Below, piece after piece: positions 1,064 to 23,737 of a DNA stretch of 23,737 nt. The DNA lies in the IMG/VR virus record IMGVR_UViG_3300024999_000400, positions 1-23,737 of that record. One strand, given 5' to 3'. This DNA is from a virus. The first letter of the stretch is position 1. Each line of letters opens with the position of its first letter. The notes beneath the pieces are model-generated. The model saw nothing but the letters and a program-made list of their open reading frames with translations. It ran no database searches and was not told the origin of the DNA. The position numbers were made by a program, and so were the translations under genes.

Positions 1064-4000
1064 TTAACCATAAATTGATGCGACATCTCTCACGCTTCCT
1101 TGTCTAACAAGAGTAGAATTGATTTCTTTTATAACATCTCTAGCAATGTCTTTTATTTTTGGAATTGTTTTTTCAATTACATCACCTTGAATCGTAATTA
1201 AACTTTCAATATTTAAACCTCCAGAACCTTGAGCTTTATTAATAATGTTGGCAACACGAGGAATCATTTTTAAGGTTTTCAATATATCATTGTTGTTCAT
1301 TACCTCTTCACCAACAAGAAGTTTAGAAAGAATCTCACCTGGTAATGTTCTAACTCCACCTACTGCACCAGAAGATAAACCACTATGGTGAGTAGGAAGT
1401 GTTTCTGTAGATACAACTGGTGAAACTCCACCATATAATGCATCTGCTAAATTTCCGTATTTTAATAATGCATCATACGCTTCATTCCATGCTTCGACAA
1501 CATCTGTTACAATTCCAGATCCATATTCAGAATTCCAATCTATTAATGATTGATATAAATCAGGAGCTTGTTCCCCAATTCTATCTAACGCATCTTGAGC
1601 AATCTGACCAGTTTTATCCAAGTATTCATCAATAGCAGAAACAGCCTCTTCAATTATTGCAATTTGAGAATCGATATTTTCTTTATATAGCTCATATTCT
1701 TGATCTAGTGCTTCTTCCTGCAAATCATAAGATCTATCTCGTTGAGTTTGTTCTAAATCTTTTTTAGCATCTGCTAATTCTTCAGCGAGTTCTAACTGTC
1801 TTGCTTTAGACTCAGCCGAAGTATCAAGTGCCAAAATTGCCATTTCAGATTGAATCTGAGCAATGGTTTTAGTTTTATCTTCAAGTTCTTCTTGATATTC
1901 TACAGATTCTTGTTCTGCTCTTAAGATTTCTTTTTTGGCATCTATAATTTCTTCATAAGCGTCAAGTTGTGCTTCTAATCCGTCTATTTGATCTTTTAAA
2001 GCATCTTTTCTTGCGTTTTGCTCCGCTTTAATTAAACTAATGACTAGATTATGAAGATCTTTAAGTGTTTTTATTTCTTCTTTTGCGACAGCAGAAGATC
2101 CACCGCCGCCACCGCCGCCTCCAGCACCACCGCCTGAATATCCAGGAAAAGCAGATCGAGTTGGAACATTTGTAGGAGGTGGATTGAAAGGCAAATTTGA
2201 AGGTGCGTTATTTTGCAATCCCCACAATGGATCATCTTCATCCAAAATTCCAGGAGATACAACATTTCCCGTAATGGTATTAACCCAAAAATTTATATAA
2301 TAATCACCACTAATAGCACTTGCAGCATTTCCAATATTCGTAATATTGGCAATAGCAATTTGAGCAGATTCATATGATCCATTTGCTAAATCAATCATGG
2401 CTTGATCCATTGAACCCAATACTCTTACAGTTTCAGATCCCATGAATCCCCAAGCTGTCATCATATCGGCAGCCATAGTATAGGCTACATTTTTAGCTTC
2501 ATTGCCTAAAGTAGATAATTGTACTCTTTGAATAAATGTGCTAATAATAGACGCTTTAAGAGATGTTTCATAAGCTTGAGCGGTTTTTAAAATATCTTGT
2601 TCAACATTATATAATTCATATTGTAAATCGCCCAATTGAGTTAATTGTTCGTCTGATAATGTTGGTTGTTCTGAAAGTAATCGTATTTCTTCTCTTAATT
2701 CTGCCGCTTGAATTCCTGCTTTTTCTTGTTTTTCGTGATAAGAATCAAATGCTTTTCCAAATGAATCATCTAGTATAAATTGCAGATCATCAAATGCTTG
2801 AGATAATTCTTCTGTGCTATCAAAGATTTGACCATGAGCACGTCTCCAAGCTGTTACCCAAGTATCTAATTCTGCTTTTGTAGCATTAAATAAACCGAGT
2901 TCAGCATCAGTAAGAACACCAAAATCATCCGCTGTTTTTATAATCGCTTGTTGAGTCAATCCCATACTTTTAATGAATCTTCCATTTTCATCAATTGTAT
3001 ATCCAGCTAATTTAGCTGCTTTTTCTACTGCCTCAGTATAATCATTATAGTTAGAAGTAGTATCTTTTAAGGTTACAATTACTTCTTTCAATCCCTGATC
3101 AAGTATCTTTTGTTTATCTACAAAAAGGGCGGCAATCCATCCTCCTCTTTCATGAGCTTCATTGACAGAATCAACCATCTTTTTGTATTCGTTCATTACT
3201 TGTTCGGTGGTCTTAATTTCTTCTCCCAAATTCTTAAAAGCATTAGACCAGGCATTAGTTGTATTTTCTAATCCCAAATCTTGATTTTTTTTAACTGTTT
3301 GTTGATATGTTATAATTACAGCAGTTAAAGCGATAATGGTTAATTGAACAGCCATAAGGGGAGTTAAGGTGCTTGCAACCGAAGTTTTAAAACTTGACCA
3401 AGCTAATTTAAGACCAATTACAGAAAAAGAAACATTTCCTATTGCAGTTACCAGGCTTCCCATTGTGGTTACTAGGCTTCCCATAGAAGTTATAAGATTA
3501 AGAATGATTTTAGATCCTAAAACTCCAATTAAACCAATAAGAGATTCTATAATGGGAATTAATCCACCCATTTTGTCAATAGCTTCAGCGGCAGAAATTC
3601 CTAAGTCTAAAAAGAATTTAATGACATCATCATCGATTGCTTTTTGCCATAGATTTTCCATTGATGCTTTTAATGTATTTGCTTTTCCCTCTATGGAATC
3701 CATGTAAATTTTATATCGTTCTGTAGCCAATCCAACAGAATGAAGTTGAATAGCCTGAGCATCTAAAACGTCATTGTAGTTTTCCATCAATACTAAGAAA
3801 TTTTCACGTTGCCTTACACCAGCAATAGCATTTGCAACTGCGCTTTGTTCTATTTCATTCATGATTGACCATTTTTCAGCAATTTCATCCATTACATCGC
3901 CCATAGGACGAAATGAAGTAGCAGTATCTCTTAGTTTAATATTAACTAAACTTAATGCTTTTTCAACATCGTTGATATTTGTTGTATCATCTTCAAACAT

Positions 4001-4177
4001 TTTTCCAAGTTTGATGTTTTCGAGTCTGGCGAACATTGTCTTAAGACTTTGTCCTATACTTTCCGCACTTCTACGGGTCACACTCGATATCGTAGTTATA
4101 TAGCTTGTTAGTTCATCAAAACTAACTCCTGCCTGTTGAGCAGAAGCAGCAGAATATTGTAGTGCTGTGGCAATTTC
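1064..4177 (-). CDS. Tape measure protein, exon 2 (residues 276-1312 of the spliced product)
   Basis: This is the larger part of the tail tape measure protein, which sets tail length, fills the tail lumen and takes part in DNA ejection. The exon opens EIATALQYSAASAQQAG, the continuation of the conserved TP901-type tape measure N-terminal domain broken off in exon 1. A strongly hydrophobic block follows at about exon residues 200-300, with IPIIESLIGLIGVLG and LTIIALTAVIITY. An alanine/glutamate-rich middle comes next, then a poly-glycine hinge at about 680-694, and then a long charged coiled coil to about 850. The C-terminus ends SVRDVASIYG. The TTG at 4180 that could serve as a start has no ribosome binding site and straddles the splice site, so this is an exon and not a separate gene. 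The Dit gene follows 61 bases downstream. Confidence 0.9.
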   Translation of the reverse strand, partial: EIATALQYSAASAQQAGVSFDELTSYITTISSVTRRSAESIGQSLKTMFARLENIKLGKMFEDDTTNINDVEKALSLVNIKLRDTATSFRPMGDVMDEIAEKWSIMNEIEQSAVANAIAGVRQRENFLVLMENYNDVLDAQAIQLHSVGLATERYKIYMDSIEGKANTLKASMENLWQKAIDDDVIKFFLDLGISAAEAIDKMGGLIPIIESLIGLIGVLGSKIILNLITSMGSLVTTMGSLVTAIGNVSFSVIGLKLAWSSFKTSVASTLTPLMAVQLTIIALTAVIITYQQTVKKNQDLGLENTTNAWSNAFKNLGEEIKTTEQVMNEYKKMVDSVNEAHERGGWIAALFVDKQKILDQGLKEVIVTLKDTTSNYNDYTEAVEKAAKLAGYTIDENGRFIKSMGLTQQAIIKTADDFGVLTDAELGLFNATKAELDTWVTAWRRAHGQIFDSTEELSQAFDDLQFILDDSFGKAFDSYHEKQEKAGIQAAELREEIRLLSEQPTLSDEQLTQLGDLQYELYNVEQDILKTAQAYETSLKASIISTFIQRVQLSTLGNEAKNVAYTMAADMMTAWGFMGSETVRVLGSMDQAMIDLANGSYESAQIAIANITNIGNAASAISGDYYINFWVNTITGNVVSPGILDEDDPLWGLQNNAPSNLPFNPPPTNVPTRSAFPGYSGGGAGGGGGGGGSSAVAKEEIKTLKDLHNLVISLIKAEQNARKDALKDQIDGLEAQLDAYEEIIDAKKEILRAEQESVEYQEELEDKTKTIAQIQSEMAILALDTSAESKARQLELAEELADAKKDLEQTQRDRSYDLQEEALDQEYELYKENIDSQIAIIEEAVSAIDEYLDKTGQIAQDALDRIGEQAPDLYQSLIDWNSEYGSGIVTDVVEAWNEAYDALLKYGNLADALYGGVSPVVSTETLPTHHSGLSSGAVGGVRTLPGEILSKLLVGEEVMNNNDILKTLKMIPRVANIINKAQGSGGLNIESLITIQGDVIEKTIPKIKDIARDVIKEINSTLVRQGSVRDVASIYG

Positions 4178-4361
4178 CAATCTGTTACTAAGGCAACCAC
4201 TTACCTTTGTGACTATTTAATAAATAAATAGCGATCAGGAATTTCTTCCTAATTCTGCAATTTTATTTTTTCGCATTATTTTTGCAGTTCAGACTATATA
4301 TTCATCCTAAAAATAGGAGGATAACTTCAGTATCTATATTACTATAAATACCCTGTAGTCG

Positions 4362-5522
4362 TTACGGATTCTTATTTATTTTTAAAAATTTTTTGGACAA
4401 AATTTTTAAATCTTTTGGGAATATTGAAATCATTTCAACATTATCATTTTTACATATTTTTATTTTTTCTTTTGTTTTTTTATTGTATTTCTCATCATTT
4501 ATCATTCCAAAATATTCAACAACAATATTTTCATTTACTAACCAATCCATAACATATCTAACCGATTTATTTTTTATTATTTTTGAATAAGGACATTCTT
4601 TTATATATCGAATATTATTATCTATAAAATAATCTGTTATAATTTGTTCTTGAATAGAATAGCAAAAATCATGATTTTTAGAGTAACACTGTGTCCCATA
4701 TCTTCCGATGTTAGGAATTAATCCTGCTTTTTCACAAGCATTTGTAAAACTTCCAAATCTGTCGAAGTATATATCAACAGCAGGAAGACTTATATTATTA
4801 GAAATTTCATTAATGTTAGGACATCTCCCAAGTTCTTTTGACATTTCTATAAGTTCATTTAATAATTTTTTATTAGAAAAATTATTGGGATCTTTTCTGC
4901 TTTTTATAAAACTCAAATTATTTCTTTTACAAAAAAGAATAATGTCAACAGATTTTCTTCCTAAATTTCTTGCTATTTCAACTGTTGTTAGTTTGTCATA
5001 ATTTTTTAAAATATATAACGATTCTTTTTCATTTATTATAGATGGATTTTTACGAAACTCACCAGAATTATTTATTCTTTGTAAGCCCATCAATCTTGCT
5101 TTTTTGGTAATTGTTTTCCTACCCCTATTTAATTTATTTTCCAATTCTTTTGTAGAAAAATTGTTATAATTATTAATTAAAAACAATTCTTCGTCTTCTG
5201 TCCACCAAAAATCATTTTTTACAGGAGAAATTTTATTTCTTTTCAATACATTTGATATTGTGCTTTCATCTCTGTTATATTTTTTAGATAGATCAACAAC
5301 AGATATGATTTTAGAATCAAATATTATTCTTTCAATTTCTTCTTTGGTAAAAGCAATACTTCCATTTTTTATAATTTTTTTTATTTTTAATTGATATGCT
5401 TTCTGAATCAAAGATTGTTTACTTCTTTTAAATTTTATTATCAGTTCAATCATTGGAGTTTCAGGATATAGTTCTATAAAATTTTCTGTTTCTTCTTTTG
5501 TCCAAAATTTTCTTTTTCCCAT
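4362..5522 (-). CDS. Intron-encoded homing endonuclease
   Basis: This 386-residue protein lies inside the intron, in the same direction as the host gene. Its stop codon overlaps the R segment of the ribozyme core. Four tandem helix-turn-helix/SANT-like repeats of about 50 residues start near residues 5 (FWTKEETENF), 58 (FTKEEIERI), 104 (WWTEDEELFL) and 162 (INEKESLYIL). A stretch at about 225-270 (ELGRCPN...FGSFTNACEKAGL) matches the homing-endonuclease-associated repeat style. The C-terminal domain has E292, D326 in YVMDW and E336 in VVEYFGM, followed by lysines and IFPKDL. It resembles a PD-(D/E)XK or Vsr/EDxHD-type nuclease, although the H of EDxHD is not evident. No LAGLIDADG, GIY-YIG or canonical HNH motif is visible. 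The start follows GAGGAAAG. It probably cuts intronless tape measure alleles at the insertion site. Confidence 0.85.
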   Translation of the reverse strand: MGKRKFWTKEETENFIELYPETPMIELIIKFKRSKQSLIQKAYQLKIKKIIKNGSIAFTKEEIERIIFDSKIISVVDLSKKYNRDESTISNVLKRNKISPVKNDFWWTEDEELFLINNYNNFSTKELENKLNRGRKTITKKARLMGLQRINNSGEFRKNPSIINEKESLYILKNYDKLTTVEIARNLGRKSVDIILFCKRNNLSFIKSRKDPNNFSNKKLLNELIEMSKELGRCPNINEISNNISLPAVDIYFDRFGSFTNACEKAGLIPNIGRYGTQCYSKNHDFCYSIQEQIITDYFIDNNIRYIKECPYSKIIKNKSVRYVMDWLVNENIVVEYFGMINDEKYNKKTKEKIKICKNDNVEMISIFPKDLKILSKKFLKINKNP

Positions 5523-5570
5523 TATAAATAAGTCTTTCCTCGGTCTTAACTTTGCGATAAGTCTTTAACC

Positions 5571-5621
5571 GATATAGTTATCTTCTAATAATTATACCAT
5601 AAAATACATGATATAGTTATC
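5571..5621 (-). repeat. 12-bp direct repeat in the 5' part of the intron
   Basis: The 12-mer GATAACTATATC (minus strand) occurs at 5610-5621 and again at 5571-5582, 39 bases apart, between the splice site and the homing endonuclease start. It may contribute to alternative pairings in the P2-P4 region or be a relic of a duplication. No function can be assigned. Confidence 0.5.
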
Positions 5622-5655
5622 CATATATTACTATATGTTCTGGCAATTTTTCTCT

Positions 5656-6480
5656 ACCAGCAGACGTAGCATATTGGTTGTCTAAATCGATTATTTTATC
5701 AACAACCAGGCTTGCATCTTCAGCCTCTAATTTAAAACCATTCAAAGTAGATGTTAATTTTTCAGTTGCATCAGCAGCCTCTAAATTACCAAGTTTACTT
5801 AACATTAAAGTTGATCTCATTAGTTCAGAAGTTTCTTCAATTGTCTTACCTTGCCTGAACCACTCCAAGCTTCCCTGTGCCACCTGAATTGTGGTTGCAC
5901 CCATTTCTTTTGCAAGCCTATTATATTCAACCGCTAATCTGTCAACTTCATCAGCCGTCATTCCCGTAACAATTTGAACATTTGTTAACTCTTTGTTCAA
6001 ATCTTTAATATATTGTATTCCTTCTTCTATTTTTCGAAGACTTCCATAAATAGCTTGTGTTGCAAGAAACCATATTGCAACTTTTTTAATAGCGACTTCA
6101 AGCATGGATGTAAATCCATAACCATCTTTAGTCGTATTTTTCATAGAAGCACCGACTTTAGTAACAGAAGTTCTTAAGTCATCAAAACTTCCCCTTACGT
6201 CTTGAACAGAAGCGCCACCCCTTTGAGAAAAACTAGAAATGTTATCTTGAAGAACCTTTAATGACGCTTGAACTTCTGCGTTATTAAAAATATCTGGAGA
6301 TTTGAATTGCATTCTTGCAATTTGATTATTCCACTGTTTAACATAGGAATCAATATCCTTTTGCCCCATGTTAATGCTCGTTGTTATTTTAATATTCTTA
6401 GTTTTCCTATCTAATTTTTGTTGAAGACCTGTAACATCAGGTTCAATGCCAACTATAATATTATAACCACCATTAGCCAT
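5656..6480 (-). CDS. Tape measure protein, exon 1 (residues 1-275)
   Basis: This exon carries the N-terminal domain of the tape measure protein. I place the start at the ATG at 6480 (MANGGYNIIVG) because GAAAGGAGGG lies just upstream. An upstream in-frame ATG at 6498 would have to encode that binding site as protein. The exon holds a short beta-like opening (IIVGIEPDVTGLQQKL), a helical linker, a hydrophobic AIWFLATQAIYGSL segment and the family signature 'DLNKELTNVQIVTGMTADEV'. It ends in LDNQYATSAG at the splice site. Joined to exon 2 it reads ATSAG-EIATALQ, which restores the conserved motif, and gives 1312 residues in all. Using the usual rule of about 0.15 nm per residue, the tail would be near 0.2 micrometre; this is inference. 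The gene follows the tyrosine recombinase with a 38-base gap that includes a small CCTCT/AGAGG hairpin. Confidence 0.9.
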
Positions 6481-6518
6481 TAATAACCCTCCTTTCAACC
6501 TCTAGAAAAGAGGCAATT

Positions 6519-7514
6519 TCATAAACCAAACATTTTATCTATAATTTCGTCTGTATGATCTTTTGAATAATCTAAAGTAGTTTTTGGATCGGAATGATGA
6601 AGATAGACTTGAACTTGTTCCAAACTAAATTTTTTAGGAATTCCATCTTTATCTAAAATTCTTTTATCTTCTCCTTGTAATAGACATTCGCATCTGGAAT
6701 GTCTATAACTATGGGGAAAAATATTCATTTGCTTTCCTTCAATTTCACTCAAAATTTCTCTTATTTTTAAAACCCAATCATAAATCATTTCATAAGAGGC
6801 TTCTCTTTTTTTATCACCACTACCAACAATCCATAAAGATTCAACATTATCTTCTCCACGTTTATCCAACCAAAGTCTTATTAATTCTTTGGTATCGTCT
6901 AGGTAAATTAATGGAAATATTTTTCCTCTTTTTCCTATGACTATATTAGTCTTATTACTATTCAAAAGATTGTATTTTTTTATTTGAGCAATTTCATTTC
7001 TTCTTGCTCCACTATCAAACATCATCATATGAAGTAAGGCAAGTTGAATTTCCCCCATTTCCAATAACTTTTCTTTTACCCTTATGATTTGATCAAAAGT
7101 CATAAAAAAAGAATCTTCATCTGTTCTAACAGGCTCTTTAGGTAATCCTTTTATTTTCTGAGCCTGGTTAATATCATATTCATATTCATCAGAATCCTCA
7201 ATATAAGAAAGCATACTTCTACAACAACTCATTACTCTATTTACTCTAGCATTTGACATTTTTAAATCATCACTTAACCAAATACTAAGTTTTCTAAAAT
7301 CTCTTTTTCCCAGTTCTAATAAATTTCTATTTCCGCAAAATCTTTTTACAAAAATATTGATTATTCTGAGATCATTTTCATATTGTTTTATGGTACTTGC
7401 TTTCATTTTTCGTTGCTGATATTCTTCTAAAAAATCTTGAACAATATCTTTGTTTTCTATATTTATGTGGGAATATTCTTCATCTGTGTATATTCTATTA
7501 TATACTCTACTCAC
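6519..7514 (-). CDS. Tyrosine recombinase (phage integrase / XerC-D family)
   Basis: This 331-residue DNA strand-exchange enzyme has an N-terminal SAM-like core-binding domain (about residues 20-108) and a C-terminal catalytic domain. The full active site is visible: R171 in GARRNEI, K198 in the beta-hairpin GKRGKIF, H268-x-x-R271 in PHSYR, H307 in YLHHSDPKTT and the nucleophile Y316 in LDYS. The usual GH of box II is HH here. The start is a GTG at 7514, preceded by AAGGAGGGAAT; the overlapping ATG there runs straight into TGA. It starts nine bases after the RuvC-like gene and ends 38 bases before the tape measure start, so it is embedded in the late tail operon. It could be an integrase, a dimer resolvase or a recombinase acting before packaging. 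No adjacent attachment site or excisionase gene is visible. Confidence 0.93.
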   Translation of the reverse strand: MSRVYNRIYTDEEYSHINIENKDIVQDFLEEYQQRKMKASTIKQYENDLRIINIFVKRFCGNRNLLELGKRDFRKLSIWLSDDLKMSNARVNRVMSCCRSMLSYIEDSDEYEYDINQAQKIKGLPKEPVRTDEDSFFMTFDQIIRVKEKLLEMGEIQLALLHMMMFDSGARRNEIAQIKKYNLLNSNKTNIVIGKRGKIFPLIYLDDTKELIRLWLDKRGEDNVESLWIVGSGDKKREASYEMIYDWVLKIREILSEIEGKQMNIFPHSYRHSRCECLLQGEDKRILDKDGIPKKFSLEQVQVYLHHSDPKTTLDYSKDHTDEIIDKMFGL

Positions 7515-18143: not shown

Positions 18144-19259
18144 CTATAATGTTAGTACCCCAGCGACTGCATTGCTCGCAATACCCACTCCCCAAGCCTT
18201 ATGCATAGTTGCACGTTGGATTAGGTTGTTATTCTCATAAACAGAATCGGTAATAGAAAGAGTTGAACCTTCCAATACTAATTTAACAAATTTCTGAGAA
18301 GCAGGAGATAAAATCCATAAACGATCTGTATCAATTTTCAAAGCCCATTCGGTAGCGAAATTAGCAACTTGGGGAAGTTCCATCACATCATAACCAAAAG
18401 CGGTTCGAACATGACCAAGAGTCATATAAGGATCATCTAAAGTATAACGATAATTAGCATCATTTGGTAAAACATTTACTAAAGCACGTGCAGTACCAAC
18501 AATCATTGCTTTATTACCGTTGTTCCAAGCGGTAACTTGTTCACATAAACGCATCAATGAATCTTGTGAATATCCTGCTACCTGTAAACCAGTTGTAGCG
18601 GTAGTCGGAAGAGCAGCAGCCATACCAGCAAAAGAATCGTACACGTCATTCCGCATAGCGGTTTCCATAGAACGAATAACTTTTGTAACCAATTTGGCAA
18701 GCGATTCTTTTCCAGCTAACACACGATATAAATCAGCGTAAACAGTTAATGCATGATTTACTGGAAGTACAGTTTTTGTTCCCATATATTGTTTATAGGA
18801 AAAAGAATTTCTTTGACCACGACCAATCTGAGAAACAGAAAAAAGATCATTAGATTCAACATCAAATTGAGCACTATCACCAAATCCAATAGTACGAACA
18901 TCGGAATATAAGCTAATAGAATCAATTAAAGTCTGTGGAATAATCATATCAACAATGCTTGCTACAACAGCAAAAATTTCATTACGCAAACCCTGATGAT
19001 TAAAGATTTGATCAGCCGAAGCTTCAGCGAGATAAGGAACGTTAGTTCGTTTCATTGCCTCTTTAATAATTGCATCAGTAATTTGTTTTTCTTTTTCCTC
19101 AAAAGTAATCAATTCGCCTTTATCATTAACTTTAGCGAATTCATAATTTCGGGTTTTGTCTTGTGAAGACTTATAGTGATTCCACCAGTCAGGGATCATT
19201 TTATTATATAATGTGGGATTCCCAACAGCGAAATGAACAATATTATTCGGAATTTGCAT
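18144..19259 (-). CDS. Major capsid protein (HK97 fold)
   Basis: This 371-residue protein builds the icosahedral head. It lies directly after the decoration and protease genes, the canonical order. The N-terminal arm (MQIPNNIVHFAVGNPTLYNK) is followed by a helical, charged delta-like segment (FEEKEKQITDAIIKEAMKR). A capsid core follows, with IVDMIIPQTLIDSISLYSDV, NHALTVYADLYRVLAGKESL and a spine-helix-like KLVTKVIRSMETAMRNDVYD. The C-terminus, HKAWGVGIASNAVAGVLTL, is hydrophobic. The start has a strong AAGGAGGAAATGAT. Tandem hairpins follow the stop. I do not see a self-crosslinking signature. I am confident of the role, with the fold inferred from size, order and pattern. Confidence 0.88.
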   Translation of the reverse strand: MQIPNNIVHFAVGNPTLYNKMIPDWWNHYKSSQDKTRNYEFAKVNDKGELITFEEKEKQITDAIIKEAMKRTNVPYLAEASADQIFNHQGLRNEIFAVVASIVDMIIPQTLIDSISLYSDVRTIGFGDSAQFDVESNDLFSVSQIGRGQRNSFSYKQYMGTKTVLPVNHALTVYADLYRVLAGKESLAKLVTKVIRSMETAMRNDVYDSFAGMAAALPTTATTGLQVAGYSQDSLMRLCEQVTAWNNGNKAMIVGTARALVNVLPNDANYRYTLDDPYMTLGHVRTAFGYDVMELPQVANFATEWALKIDTDRLWILSPASQKFVKLVLEGSTLSITDSVYENNNLIQRATMHKAWGVGIASNAVAGVLTL

Positions 19260-19312: not shown

Positions 19313-19855
19313 TTAGTTAGCAAGACAGACCATTCGATAAGCTGTAACTCTACCGCTTGCAACCGCAGGATTACCAATAGAGATCCATTTTGTCGCTAAA
19401 TACTTAAATGATAAAGCACTAACATCCTGAGAAGCGCCCCAAACCAATTGCCACAATCCAGTTGTAGCATTAGCATAAGTGTTGGTAGATTTTGCAGCAG
19501 TGAAACAATCTTCGCTTAAAGTTACAATGTCTCCAACCTGTGGTTTAAAAGAACTAAACACACGACTTGCAGGAATAACGAAATTACGAGGATCTTCCGA
19601 ACCCACATTAAAAATTTCACCATCTGCTGAACTCACGTAAGGAATAACCGCTGCATTAGCCATCCATACATCAACTAAACTACCTGTTGCTACTTGGGTT
19701 GCGGCAAAGACTTCACTCTGTCCAGAACCACTCGAAAGAGAGTCCAAACGGAAAAGAGAAGCCTGTTCCAAAATACTACCACTTACCGCTGATCGATTAT
19801 AAATTCCTACGTCAGTGGCGGCAACCTGATTTAACTCAATAACTGCATATGCCAT
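19313..19855 (-). CDS. Probable capsid decoration / head stabilisation protein
   Basis: This 180-residue beta-rich protein starts MAYAVIELNQVAATDVGIYN and includes LFRLDSLSSGSGQSEVFAAT, FSSFKPQVGDIVTLSEDCF and WISIGNPAVASGRVTAYRMV. Small Ala/Ser/Gly/Val-rich proteins between protease and major capsid genes are usually decoration proteins that clamp the expanded head. The start has AGGAGGTAAAT. An imperfect hairpin (19294-19315) begins at its stop codon and lies before the capsid start. There are no catalytic motifs. The assignment rests on order and composition. Confidence 0.6.
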   Translation of the reverse strand: MAYAVIELNQVAATDVGIYNRSAVSGSILEQASLFRLDSLSSGSGQSEVFAATQVATGSLVDVWMANAAVIPYVSSADGEIFNVGSEDPRNFVIPASRVFSSFKPQVGDIVTLSEDCFTAAKSTNTYANATTGLWQLVWGASQDVSALSFKYLATKWISIGNPAVASGRVTAYRMVCLAN

Positions 19856-19867
19856 ATTTACCTCCTA

Positions 19868-21682
19868 TTATTTCCAGAAACTTGCGGTAACTGGTTGATT
19901 TTTATTTACCGAATCCCAACCATAACGAGGCTCTTCGTCCTCTTTTTTTGAATCCTTTTTAATTGCAAAATCTAAAGCTCTAGCTTTCGCCAAATTTTCC
20001 CAAACGGAAATATTTTCTAAACTAAACTCTTTAGATTTTTCTTTTAAAGAACTCAACTCATCTTTTGGAATCTCAGTTTTTTCTTCAATTTTCTTTAAAA
20101 TAGAATCAACAGAAAAATTAAATTGTTCATCTTCTTTTTCTTTCTTATATTTCTTTAAATCTTCATTTTCAGCCATATAAGAACTTGCTTCGGATTCTTT
20201 ATTCTTTAGTTGTTCTGCCATTTTTTTTATCTTTTCAAACATATAATAAGTCATTTTTGAAAAATTCTTAACTTCTTTTTCGTCTGAAAATTCGGCAGCC
20301 AAAGATTTATAGTCTTCTGTTTCTTCCTGAAGAAAAGCTAAAATAGCTTTAACATCTAAATTAGCGTCCAAAGACATATCTTCTTTTTCAGATTTCTCTT
20401 CCTCTTCGGGTTTTTCATCTTCGGATTCTTCATTTTCTTTTTCATCAGACATGTTTTCTTCCTTTGGCTTTTCAGCCATTTTTTCTTTGTCTTCTTCTTC
20501 GGTTTCTTGTTCAAAATCCTTTTTTTCTTCTTCCATATTTTTCGACTTCTCCTTTCTCACCCATTTTCCATTCTCAACTTTATGAGTTTTTTTAAAATTC
20601 GAAATAGCAATAGCCCAACCATTTTTTTCTTTATCTGAACCAATGGAATCAGCCTGTCTTGCTATTGTATTTGCTTGAGAAACAGAAATAGGAGGATTTA
20701 TTCCCTTTAAAGCAGGATTCATTTCCGATTTATCTTTATACGGAAAAGTAACTTTTTCAAAATTTTCAATATCAGAAAAATAAGTCATTTCTCTTTTATC
20801 TATTTCATTCATCTTTTCGACAATACTCGATGACCAATTTTTTCCTTCATTGCCACCTCTGTTTAACCAAGATATCCATTCATTAGATGTTTTATTAGTA
20901 AGATTGTCTTTTGCATGTCTGAAAAAATATTTTTCTATACTTCTTATTTTTTCTGGAGTTACAGATTGATTTTTTATTATATATCTTGCAATTGCTAGTC
21001 CAACAGAAGTTCCACCGCCATATTTTTTATAAAGTTCAATACTTTTTTTAGCATTATTCTTTATTTCTTCTGGAATAGAAAAATCAATTTCATCATACAT
21101 TCTTGAAAATTCTAAATGTAATGCTTTTTCATATTCTTTTTTTGCAAAACTAAGAACCTCTAAATGAGCACCAGGACTAGCTTCAGTGATAAGATCTCCC
21201 AATACACAAACGGCAGAATATTCAAAATCAAGCATTTCTTCTCCGTTTTCCATTTCGGAATAATCTTTTAACTCCATTTCAACAGAAACTTTTTTTTCAT
21301 GATTTTCTGATTCTTTTAATAGTTGCATAAATTGAGGAGCATACATTTTCCATATTTTCGCTAAAACAGATAAAGATGTTCTTCCATCTTCAAGTTCAAT
21401 AAATTCAGCAGAATCACGAACAATAAATCCAGCAATAAAAGATTTTTCTGGATCGGTATGAGAATCAAAATCACGAAATAATTTAGAAAAAGAATAAATA
21501 ACTGGCTTATCATAAATTGATGACGCTGTATTTTTCAATGTATCTAATGAACAATACATGTCATGTCTATTCCAACCACTATTAAACGCAAAAATTTTTA
21601 CTGTTGCAAATTGAGAAGATTGGTTATCTTCTATAATCTCTCCGCTTTCAATATCAAATAATAAATGCTTATTAACACTCAC
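19868..21682 (-). CDS. Capsid maturation protease fused to scaffold
   Basis: The 604-residue protein starts with GTG at 21682 after AAAGGAGGAAAAAT. Residues 1-180 fit a phage prohead protease, with a likely catalytic H75 (FDSHTD) and S133 (KKVSVEME), in the order used by HK97-type proteases. A middle part includes KYGGGTSVGLAIARYIIKNQ and ALKGINPPISVSQANTIARQ, then WAIAISNFKKTHKVENGKW, a segment I associate with Bacillota phage proteases. The last 220 residues are extremely charged and helical (many EEE/KEE tracts, then coiled coil), as expected of a scaffold. The fusion means scaffold is probably released by cleavage or made from an internal start at 20536. It is placed just before the decoration and capsid genes. 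Confidence 0.8.
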   Translation of the reverse strand: MSVNKHLLFDIESGEIIEDNQSSQFATVKIFAFNSGWNRHDMYCSLDTLKNTASSIYDKPVIYSFSKLFRDFDSHTDPEKSFIAGFIVRDSAEFIELEDGRTSLSVLAKIWKMYAPQFMQLLKESENHEKKVSVEMELKDYSEMENGEEMLDFEYSAVCVLGDLITEASPGAHLEVLSFAKKEYEKALHLEFSRMYDEIDFSIPEEIKNNAKKSIELYKKYGGGTSVGLAIARYIIKNQSVTPEKIRSIEKYFFRHAKDNLTNKTSNEWISWLNRGGNEGKNWSSSIVEKMNEIDKREMTYFSDIENFEKVTFPYKDKSEMNPALKGINPPISVSQANTIARQADSIGSDKEKNGWAIAISNFKKTHKVENGKWVRKEKSKNMEEEKKDFEQETEEEDKEKMAEKPKEENMSDEKENEESEDEKPEEEEKSEKEDMSLDANLDVKAILAFLQEETEDYKSLAAEFSDEKEVKNFSKMTYYMFEKIKKMAEQLKNKESEASSYMAENEDLKKYKKEKEDEQFNFSVDSILKKIEEKTEIPKDELSSLKEKSKEFSLENISVWENLAKARALDFAIKKDSKKEDEEPRYGWDSVNKNQPVTASFWK

Positions 21683-21728: not shown

Positions 21729-21929
21729 CTATAATTTATTCAATAGTTTTATATAAATAGGAACTTTTTTTAATTTTTCTTTAAAAGAAACTGTATTTAC
21801 AAAATAGTCCTTATTTTTTTTTCTATGAATTGCCATAGCGCCTAACTCTTGAATTAAATATTCCCCCATTCTTTTATTACAAGAAAACCACGAATCTAAT
21901 TGCTCTTGAGTAGGATTAATAAGATACAT
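21729..21929 (-). CDS. Small hypothetical protein coupled to the ferritin gene
   Basis: The 66-residue basic protein starts at the ATG at 21929 (MYLINPTQEQLDSWFSCNKR), whose A is the last base of the ferritin stop (TAATG). It also has AGGAG seven bases upstream inside the ferritin gene, so translation is coupled. It contains ELGAMAIHRKKNKDYFVNTV and ends in a lysine-rich helix. I recognise no family. The tight coupling suggests a role with the ferritin or in head assembly; this is inference only. Confidence 0.6.
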   Translation of the reverse strand: MYLINPTQEQLDSWFSCNKRMGEYLIQELGAMAIHRKKNKDYFVNTVSFKEKLKKVPIYIKLLNKL

Positions 21930-22420
21930 TATTTCTCTCCTAAATCCCAAAGGAATACGTTGAACCAATTATTTCCAGTCAATTCAGCTTTATCCATAAA
22001 ATCAGTTGCTTCTTCGTATTCATGTCTTTGCATTTCTATCATTTTTCTCATAAATTCTTCTACAACTGGATTTGACTCATCAATTGATATTTTTTTAATT
22101 TCATCAAGACTCGCAGTTGTTTCATATTCCCTTAACAAATACTTATCGGCAATATCTATAATAGAAGTAATTGGAATATTAATTTCATCAATTTCTGGAA
22201 GCATCACATTTGCATTTATATCAGTCAATAAACTTATGATCATTTCAGAATGTTCATTCTCTTCCTTGTATTGATTGTAAAATTTATTCCCCAAATGATT
22301 TAATCCTTTATTTTTTAAGAAAGAAGATATGTATAAATATAAATGTGCGTTATACTTTTCATGCGCCCATTGCGCCAATAAAGAATCGATTAAATTTTCA
22401 CTAATTAATTTCATCCCCAT
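21929..22420 (-). CDS. Ferritin (non-haem, ferroxidase centre intact)
   Basis: This 163-residue four-helix ferritin-like protein would oxidise Fe(II) and may store iron in a cage. All ferroxidase ligands expected from E. coli FtnA are present at a constant offset of four: E21 (E17), E54 (E50), H57 (H53), E98 (E94), Q131 (Q127) and E134 (E130), with Y28 matching Y24 (FtnA numbering from memory). Motifs visible are AHEKYNAHLYLYISSFLKNK, YKEENEHSEM and IEMQRHEYEEA. The length is that of classical bacterial ferritins, longer than many Dps fragments. It has the strong binding site AAGGAGGTAAACTAGA. It lies in the head operon between a decoration-type gene and the protease, in an operonic context with no other iron genes. 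A catalytic role is expected from the ligands; a virion role is open. Confidence 0.88.
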   Translation of the reverse strand: MGMKLISENLIDSLLAQWAHEKYNAHLYLYISSFLKNKGLNHLGNKFYNQYKEENEHSEMIISLLTDINANVMLPEIDEINIPITSIIDIADKYLLREYETTASLDEIKKISIDESNPVVEEFMRKMIEMQRHEYEEATDFMDKAELTGNNWFNVFLWDLGEK

Positions 22421-22464
22421 TCTAGTTTACCTCCTTTCCAAAAAAATCAAATAAAACATATCTT

Positions 22465-22794
22465 TTATTGGAAAGAAATCAATCGAATTACATCACTTGT
22501 TTGAATTACACCAGCAGCAGGACTTGAAATTGTAACTGTACCAGCAGCGTTAGTAGTATAAAGTTGTGAACCACTTGGACTTGGAACTAAAGAACCTGAG
22601 CGATATTGCTGGAATATAAATCCAGTAACAGAAGTTAATCCTGTAGCAATTGCTACACTTGAAGCACTCGCTTGAGCAGCAGAAACAGTAGTAACAGATG
22701 CGCCCTGAAATCCTTGAATTAAAGTTCCTAGTGAAACATCCTGAGAAGCACGATTCATTTTATTTAATTTAGTTTTTTGTGTTGCAGTAATCAT
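22465..22794 (-). CDS. Small capsid-associated protein
   Basis: The 109-residue protein has a short helical start (MITATQKTKLNKMNRASQDV). The rest is Ser/Thr/Ala/Gly-rich and probably all-beta: SLGTLIQGFQGASVTTVSAA, TGFIFQQYRSGSLVPSPSGS, then NAAGTVTISSPAAGVIQTS. The 'KLNKMNRA.QDVSLGTLIQ' opening is a pattern I associate with small virion proteins encoded near portal or protease genes. It may be a head decoration or fibre subunit. The start follows GGAGG at a rather long distance of 12 bases. Function is inferred from composition and place. Confidence 0.5.
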   Translation of the reverse strand: MITATQKTKLNKMNRASQDVSLGTLIQGFQGASVTTVSAAQASASSVAIATGLTSVTGFIFQQYRSGSLVPSPSGSQLYTTNAAGTVTISSPAAGVIQTSDVIRLISFQ

Positions 22795-22878: not shown

Positions 22879-23737
22879 TCATTTTAATTTTTTAGCATCA
22901 TTTGAGCCTGTTTCTCTTGTTTGAGCACCAGCCTCTCCCAATTCGCTATCCGATGATTTCGGTCTACCGCCTTTATCACTATCTTTTCCACTCATTTGAA
23001 AACCAGAAATAATTGGAGTAAGTTTATCAACAAAGCCACTTCCTCTAGCTTCTTGAAGCATTCTTTCCAACTCTTGTGGCAACAAACCTATGGCACTAGA
23101 AATCAATTGTGGAAGAACTATTCCCTTATCCGCCATTCCCATAGCTCTTTCATATCTTTGAGTTCTATTTAAATAGTAATCATTACCTTCTAATCTAAAT
23201 CTATATTTATATTTATTTGTTCTTAAATTTGCCCAATAATTAAGGAATGCAGCAAATTGAGGATATAATTGTTGTTCCATTATCTTAGAATCAGATTCAA
23301 AGGATAATTGAGAATCTACTAAATTTGCCTTTGTTTGCATTGAATAAATCAAAGCAGTATCCATTCCAGACATAGACATAGAAGTTTGAATCCATTTACT
23401 CAAAACATCAGTATCGCCTTCAAAAGAAAATGCTTGCATATTCTCTAATGGAGCAGCAGAAACTTTAACGGCTTCTCCAACCGCAGATTTAGCCAAAGCC
23501 ATAAACTGTCCTAATTGAACAGGATTTAATGCCGCCATATCTGCAACCGAAGCACCTTTATCGTCTTTTCTCATGGGAACTTCACCAAACAATATTTTTG
23601 CAGCAGAAGCCATATTAATGTTTTTCTGTAAAGCAATCATAGTTTGATCATTAATAAGCAAAGGCAACATAGCAGAAAAATACGGAATAGCAGTCATTAA
23701 AGATGTATCTAGCTTAAATACCCAACCCTCAGATGGG
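22879..23737 (-). CDS. Portal protein, C-terminal part (5' end outside the window)
   Basis: The frame is open to the right edge: 13 sense codons (PSEGWVFKLDTSL) precede the first in-window ATG at 23697, so the true start is outside. The visible 285 or so residues are typical of the clip/wing/stem end of a phage portal, the dodecameric DNA gate at the head vertex. These include PYFSAMLPLLINDQTMIALQ, MSGMDTALIYSMQTKANLVD, RYERAMGMADKGIVLPQLIS and ELERMLQEARGSGFVDKLTP. The C-terminus is a charged, flexible tail with GGRPKSSDSE. Its place upstream of protease and capsid genes fits. The terminase genes should lie to the right. Confidence 0.8.
   Translation of the reverse strand, partial: PSEGWVFKLDTSLMTAIPYFSAMLPLLINDQTMIALQKNINMASAAKILFGEVPMRKDDKGASVADMAALNPVQLGQFMALAKSAVGEAVKVSAAPLENMQAFSFEGDTDVLSKWIQTSMSMSGMDTALIYSMQTKANLVDSQLSFESDSKIMEQQLYPQFAAFLNYWANLRTNKYKYRFRLEGNDYYLNRTQRYERAMGMADKGIVLPQLISSAIGLLPQELERMLQEARGSGFVDKLTPIISGFQMSGKDSDKGGRPKSSDSELGEAGAQTRETGSNDAKKLK

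Follow-up and report, generated by a model that had tools for sequence, protein, structure and literature searches.

Dps proteins and Mn-catalases of gut phages ('Gratiaviridae') and of Lactobacillus plantarum phages have been proposed to lower oxidative stress (PMC8008677, PMC6669764), and in the L. plantarum phage the Dps gene lies near the replication genes, outside the head module (PMC6669764). These proteins belong to the ferritin superfamily, as does the one described here, but to other subfamilies. A ferritin fold was predicted with Phyre2 for gp217 of the Vi01-like phage Sajous1, a phage of a family unrelated to ours; the protein was detected by mass spectrometry in phage preparations, its gene was placed together with that of a tail completion protein in a proposed tail-linked operon, and the iron-uptake route that its authors proposed was not needed in the single host tested (PMC10892097). 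Giant viruses of the NCLDV also encode ferritin, which has been treated as a metabolic gene (PMC7136201), but these are viruses of eukaryotes and the head-operon context is lacking. In the paper on the Enterocloster phage PMBT24, 'ferritin' appears only in a list, its site and location passing uncommented (PMC11035940). Phage Dps and gene-level 'ferritin' labels are already known, whereas a conserved head-module ferritin with predicted ferroxidase competence is apparently undescribed: in the open-access literature, to which this search was confined, no ligand-complete ferritin conserved among head-module genes is described.

The DNA analysed here (the window) is a whole IMG/VR virus record of 23,737 bases. 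In the first-pass annotation, a ferritin of 163 residues with six ferroxidase ligands and a tyrosine had been read at 21929..22420; the frame is real, it lies on the minus strand (22420 to 21929), and each of the residues is found where it had been placed, E21, E54, H57, E98, Q131, E134 and Y28 corresponding to E17, E50, H53, E94, Q127, E130 and Y24 of FtnA. The two checks which it had proposed for this identity, by profile and by fold, came out in its favour. The match to the Pfam Ferritin profile (PF00210) is strong, with E=1.5e-16 and 61.1 bits against a cut-off of 24.5, and a sequence search of the PDB returned ferritins at E values of 1e-7 to 1e-4, headed by the C. jejuni ferritin 1krq. 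AlphaFold, given the window ferritin and six relatives, reached a pLDDT of 90.8 in the top of five models, the other four remaining at 44-51. The predicted helices (8-37, 41-67, 87-114 and 118-147, then a short one at 152-161) form the four-helix bundle with a short C-terminal fifth helix typical of the FtnA class, and Foldseek aligned the model with PDB ferritins at TM scores of 0.88-0.90, the A. fulgidus ferritin being nearest. Prokaryotic non-heme ferritins (A. fulgidus, C. jejuni, T. maritima, V. cholerae) share with the window protein the bundle and fifth helix as well as the six di-iron ligands and the conserved tyrosine, at about 16-25% identity in the fold alignments; unlike them, the phage ferritins are encoded in a head operon, have a shorter and variable tail and are parted by one tree branch from the 31 cellular ferritins sampled. 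Since the NCBIfam FtnA equivalog models gave 17 bits where 178 are needed, the window protein should be called a ferritin, but not FtnA itself.

Three other subfamilies were considered and rejected. Dps has its ferroxidase site between subunits and is devoid of the intrasubunit di-iron ligand set; the window protein has this set in full, and the top structural matches shown are ferritins. Bacterioferritin has a heme-ligand methionine and a second-site pair E127/H130; the window protein has N55 where the heme ligand would stand, and Q131/E134 at the site of that pair. The rubrerythrin profile scored 17.1 bits, below its cut-off of 22.8, and the protein ends at residue 163 with no Cys and no rubredoxin domain. 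Judged from sequence and predicted structure together, the gene product is a genuine non-heme ferritin with a complete predicted ferroxidase site, for which, by analogy, a 24-mer cage is likely.

The surrounding genes, all on the minus strand, make up a head operon. At the window edge, which cuts off its 5' end, lies the portal gene (22879..23736; C-terminal 285 residues, phrog_2739, E=1.3e-13). It is followed by a 109-aa protein of unassigned function (22465..22794; weak match to phrog_18880), and a Shine-Dalgarno motif read from the sequence (AAGGAGG, 22430..22436) stands 9 nt before the ferritin ATG. The ferritin stop codon TAA (21931-21929) shares a base with the ATG (21929-21927) of a 66-codon reading frame ending at 21729 (21729..21929). 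The small protein encoded there has no Pfam match, while the gene of phage TR-TP1 in a similar position is annotated as DUF5659; this partner gene adjoins nearly all phage ferritins and also occurs in the slot of some ferritin-less relatives. Next comes a 604-aa probable prohead protease/scaffold protein (19868..21682), which matches phrog_3313, an entry without function, and nothing in Pfam, its homologue in Bacillus phage PJN02 being annotated as 'putative prohead protease'. A 180-aa protein (19313..19855; phrog_4147) precedes the major capsid protein of 371 aa (18144..19259; phrog_4088), homologues of which carry the annotation 'major capsid protein' in PMBT24 and PJN02. Homologues of the 180-aa protein occupy the same place in every relative whose contig covers it, and from this position it is a probable head decoration protein. 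The strong ribosome binding site and the TAATG-coupled 66-residue gene of the first-pass annotation are both seen in the sequence, and so is its placing of the ferritin between a small gene and the protease/scaffold gene; its description of that small gene as capsid-associated was not confirmed. The 109-aa gene lies between portal and ferritin in the subgroup of the window only, and its homologue is found several kb downstream of the capsid gene in L013, L014, L016, L021, L024, L026 and L029. Two further peculiarities were seen in relatives: the 180-aa gene is duplicated in tandem in seven contigs (L017, L032, L034, L045, L047, L061, L079), and the major capsid gene of L034 is present as three separate reading frames (L034:9998-11634), through insertion, intron or error.

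Beyond the head genes, the tail tape measure gene (1064-6498, minus strand) apparently consists of two parts, 5617-6498 and 1064-4180, separated by a 386-aa reading frame (4362-5522) that by eye resembles a homing endonuclease; Rfam gave no intron above threshold at this place. A tyrosine recombinase gene (6519-7514, minus strand; Pfam Phage_integrase, 4e-9) adjoins the tape measure gene. A XerC/D-type recombinase is found in a comparable position in Sundance, PJN02 and PhiSepi-HH3, all of them SPbeta-like, so the recombinase of the window may be a component of the tail cluster and not a sign of lysogeny. Rfam and tRNA scans of the whole window gave no matches, and promoter and terminator scans nothing above chance level.

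Relatives were collected from IMG/VR scans with ferritin and capsid alignments and from one scan of GTDB genomes. A ferritin adjoins the head genes in 44 distinct contigs, the window included, several of them near-copies, and wherever a contig covers the neighbours the order is portal, (small gene), ferritin, a gene of 60-80 aa, protease, the 180-aa gene and capsid, interrupted in a few places by inserted reading frames. The ferritin start lies -4 to +4 nt from the portal stop in 16 contigs, and such abutting or overlapping suggests that both genes are translationally coupled in these relatives. The proposal that the ferritin is made with the head proteins draws support from this and from the fixed position, and hardly any close relative that has this head module was without the gene, the comparison by which the first-pass annotation had wanted a chance insertion to be judged. 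Six large phage contigs searched as a whole contained one Ferritin match above the Pfam cut-off each. Homologues of the window capsid protein occur in phages of Enterocloster, Thomasclavelia, Brevibacillus (Sundance), Bacillus (PJN02) and Staphylococcus (PhiSepi-HH3), and with terminase, portal, protease and major capsid protein homologous and in matching order, the window phage clade has the head module of the SPbeta-related siphophages. Among 50,697 phage records, a search with the window ferritin matched bacterial-looking faecal contigs only, and one with the divergent phage ferritin of L034 matched three unannotated records only, over part of the length. Two faecal 'Bacteriophage sp.' records (MT836766, L008; MT838721, L009) look like bacterial chromosome with cellular ferritins and were not counted as phage. 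A 93-kb contig of a Candidatus Woesearchaeota MAG (BPGB01000006.1, L080) carries the phage head module with ferritin; it is phage-like in the parts read and probably misbinned, and gives no clue to the host.

Could a host ferritin have been picked up by chance in recent times, without serving the phage at all? The cellular origin of the ferritin family is the sole point in favour of this reading, which we consider extremely improbable and have rejected. The ferritin is under purifying selection and spread over 44 contigs at roughly 30-92% identity, and its best cellular matches, in a sample of about 500 Bacillota and Bacteroidota genomes, are only 26-36% identical. When 34 phage ferritins were placed in a tree with 31 cellular ones, from Bacillota and Bacteroidota, a single branch (support 100/99) parted both sets; the rooting is uncertain, as is the position of the long-branched L080. 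By sequence comparison, the ferritin is a long-resident head-operon gene of one SPbeta-related phage clade.

Constraint on the protein was examined in an alignment of the 44 copies, of which 35 are distinct, with pairwise identities from roughly 30 to 92%. Only 16 of the 163 columns are invariant, and E21, Y28, E54, H57, E98, Q131 and E134, identical in every copy covering them (43-44), are among these. Pairwise dN/dS is 0.06-0.15 for the ferritin, 0.05-0.11 for the portal and 0.06-0.09 for the capsid protein, and in most pairs it is lower for the ferritin than for the neighbouring small genes. Invariant ligands together with low dN/dS indicate that the iron site itself is under selection: as the remainder of the ferritin diverged, the predicted iron-oxidation site stayed the same.

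The site has also been kept across the exchange of the gene. L021 and L023 have major capsid proteins which are 96% identical and head-module DNA about 80% alike, and in the capsid tree L021 stands with L023 and L049 (support 100/99). Their homology ends at the portal stop codon and returns in the last bases of the ferritin; the ferritins in between share 33% identity over 147 residues, both with the full ligand set, and in the ferritin tree L021 stands with L034, L074 and L079. From these alignments, a single gene has been exchanged for a distant ferritin at the same spot. On a smaller scale, the DNA of L018 and L020 agrees at 97-98% of positions for most of the region that they share, but the 3' ends of their ferritin genes (L018:6925-7416, L020:6931-7416) encode different last ~20 residues, which reads as an exchange of tails. 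W152 is common to the main phage ferritin group, the C-terminal tail otherwise being short and variable.

The ferritin can also be absent. L017 and L081 are without it but have kept the small partner gene, and in the SPbeta-like phages Sundance, PJN02 and PhiSepi-HH3 the protease gene follows the portal gene directly; because all these phages lack it, the ferritin is not essential to head architecture. In the related phages L037, L091 and L092, the slot holds an 86-87-aa protein (LALSKEVI..ALNS..) instead. In Enterocloster and Thomasclavelia phages, faecal MT838494 and IMG/VR L084, it holds a protein of 166-171 aa which, in a joint alignment, has other letters at E21, Y28, E54, E98, Q131 and E134, only a histidine lining up near H57 in a gapped stretch. 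PMBT24 (ORF39, 'Ferritin'), CB457P1/CB473P1 and TR-TP1 ('Ferritin domain' protein) have the order portal, gene, small gene, protease, small protein and capsid, as in the window clade, and their slot proteins show a distant, full-length profile similarity to ferritin but no ferroxidase ligands. Comparison by hhalign of a five-sequence profile of the ligand-free proteins with the combined ferritin profile gave 88% probability over the full length (E 3.4e-7 for one comparison), reversed controls reaching 0.1-0.3% and column-shuffled ones scores of at most 9.7 against 38.5 for the real pair. The value depends on the profiles used, with 29% against cellular, 68% against phage and 88% against all ferritins, and on the number of ligand-free sequences, three giving 2.7% (not significant) and four 43%; a run with separate settings gave 80%. 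AlphaFold of the single L084 sequence reached a pLDDT of only 52, and it is therefore the profile comparison which carries the assignment of fold. As queries in two viral-contig scans the ligand-free protein returned no matches, the family having been reached through the capsid gene. With moderate confidence, we consider these slot proteins of gut phages to be descendants of ferritin that have lost the iron site.

Such a relative (hhalign 80-88%) could indicate a structural minor head protein with a ferritin fold, for which iron chemistry is incidental, and in other tailed phages virion proteins are indeed often encoded between portal and protease/scaffold. This reading is, however, hard to reconcile with ligands that are invariant in 35 distinct sequences down to about 30% identity and survive replacement by a distant ferritin, or with the tolerated loss of the gene in L017 and L081, and we hold it to be quite unlikely. 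A stronger competitor is a soluble ferritin made late, without contact to the head, which would relieve the infected cell of free iron and oxidative stress, the head operon being suited to strong late expression. The complete and invariant predicted ferroxidase centre agrees with such a role, the one proposed for Dps and Mn-catalase in gut and Lactobacillus phages (PMC8008677, PMC6669764), as does the fact that the phage tolerates a swap for a distant ferritin whose C-terminal tail is unlike the original one. Against it stand the constant gene position in 44 contigs, where the phage Dps gene lies near replication genes (PMC6669764), the overlap with the portal stop in many relatives and the slot kept by a ligand-free relative in gut phages. 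We regard it as a serious possibility, if a somewhat improbable one.

The account which we prefer, and to which we would give about an even chance, is that of an iron-oxidising ferritin made late and acting with the assembling head. To judge from gene position and coupling, it would be translated late, together with portal and scaffold; its subunits would fold and assemble into a cage, act where and when heads are assembled and, by established ferritin chemistry, oxidise Fe2+ with O2 or H2O2 and store the ferric mineral, so that the packaged DNA, and possibly the finished particle too, would be spared Fenton damage. A conserved, syntenic location in the head operon, as expected of a head protein, was found in 44 contigs, and the retention of a ligand-free relative in the same slot speaks for a further, head-related role of the protein. 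The fixed place would most probably be due to binding to the procapsid or enclosure within it, and association with the virion is plausible. The first-pass annotation had further proposed that the ferritin might provide the particle with iron or withdraw iron from the host late in infection, both of which are conjectural. On the other hand, the fixed position could reflect only the need for late, strong expression, and none of the known signals for binding capsid or scaffold was identified; the C-terminal tail differs between phages that are otherwise almost the same. More specifically, the ferritin or its subunits might sit in or on the HK97-fold procapsid, giving the head its own iron-oxidising, DNA-protecting part, with the iron site lost and the structural role kept in the gut phages; this version we put forward as tentative and rather unlikely. 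Iron-storing encapsulins combine an HK97-fold shell with a ferritin-like iron oxidase, and a procapsid-bound ferritin, if true, would be their viral counterpart; the parallel is conceptual only, and no cargo-docking peptide was seen in the phage ferritin.

Ferritin-superfamily genes of phages have so far been read as metabolic cargo, and here an intact predicted iron site is found at a fixed place of the head operon. A link between iron chemistry and head assembly can now be tested directly, in part in cultured Enterocloster and Thomasclavelia phages, and the natural series of active, replaced, iron-site-lost and absent ferritins allows one to ask of what use a ferritin is to a phage particle. 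The conservation described suggests that the handling of iron is part of how this clade assembles, protects its DNA or treats its host late in infection.
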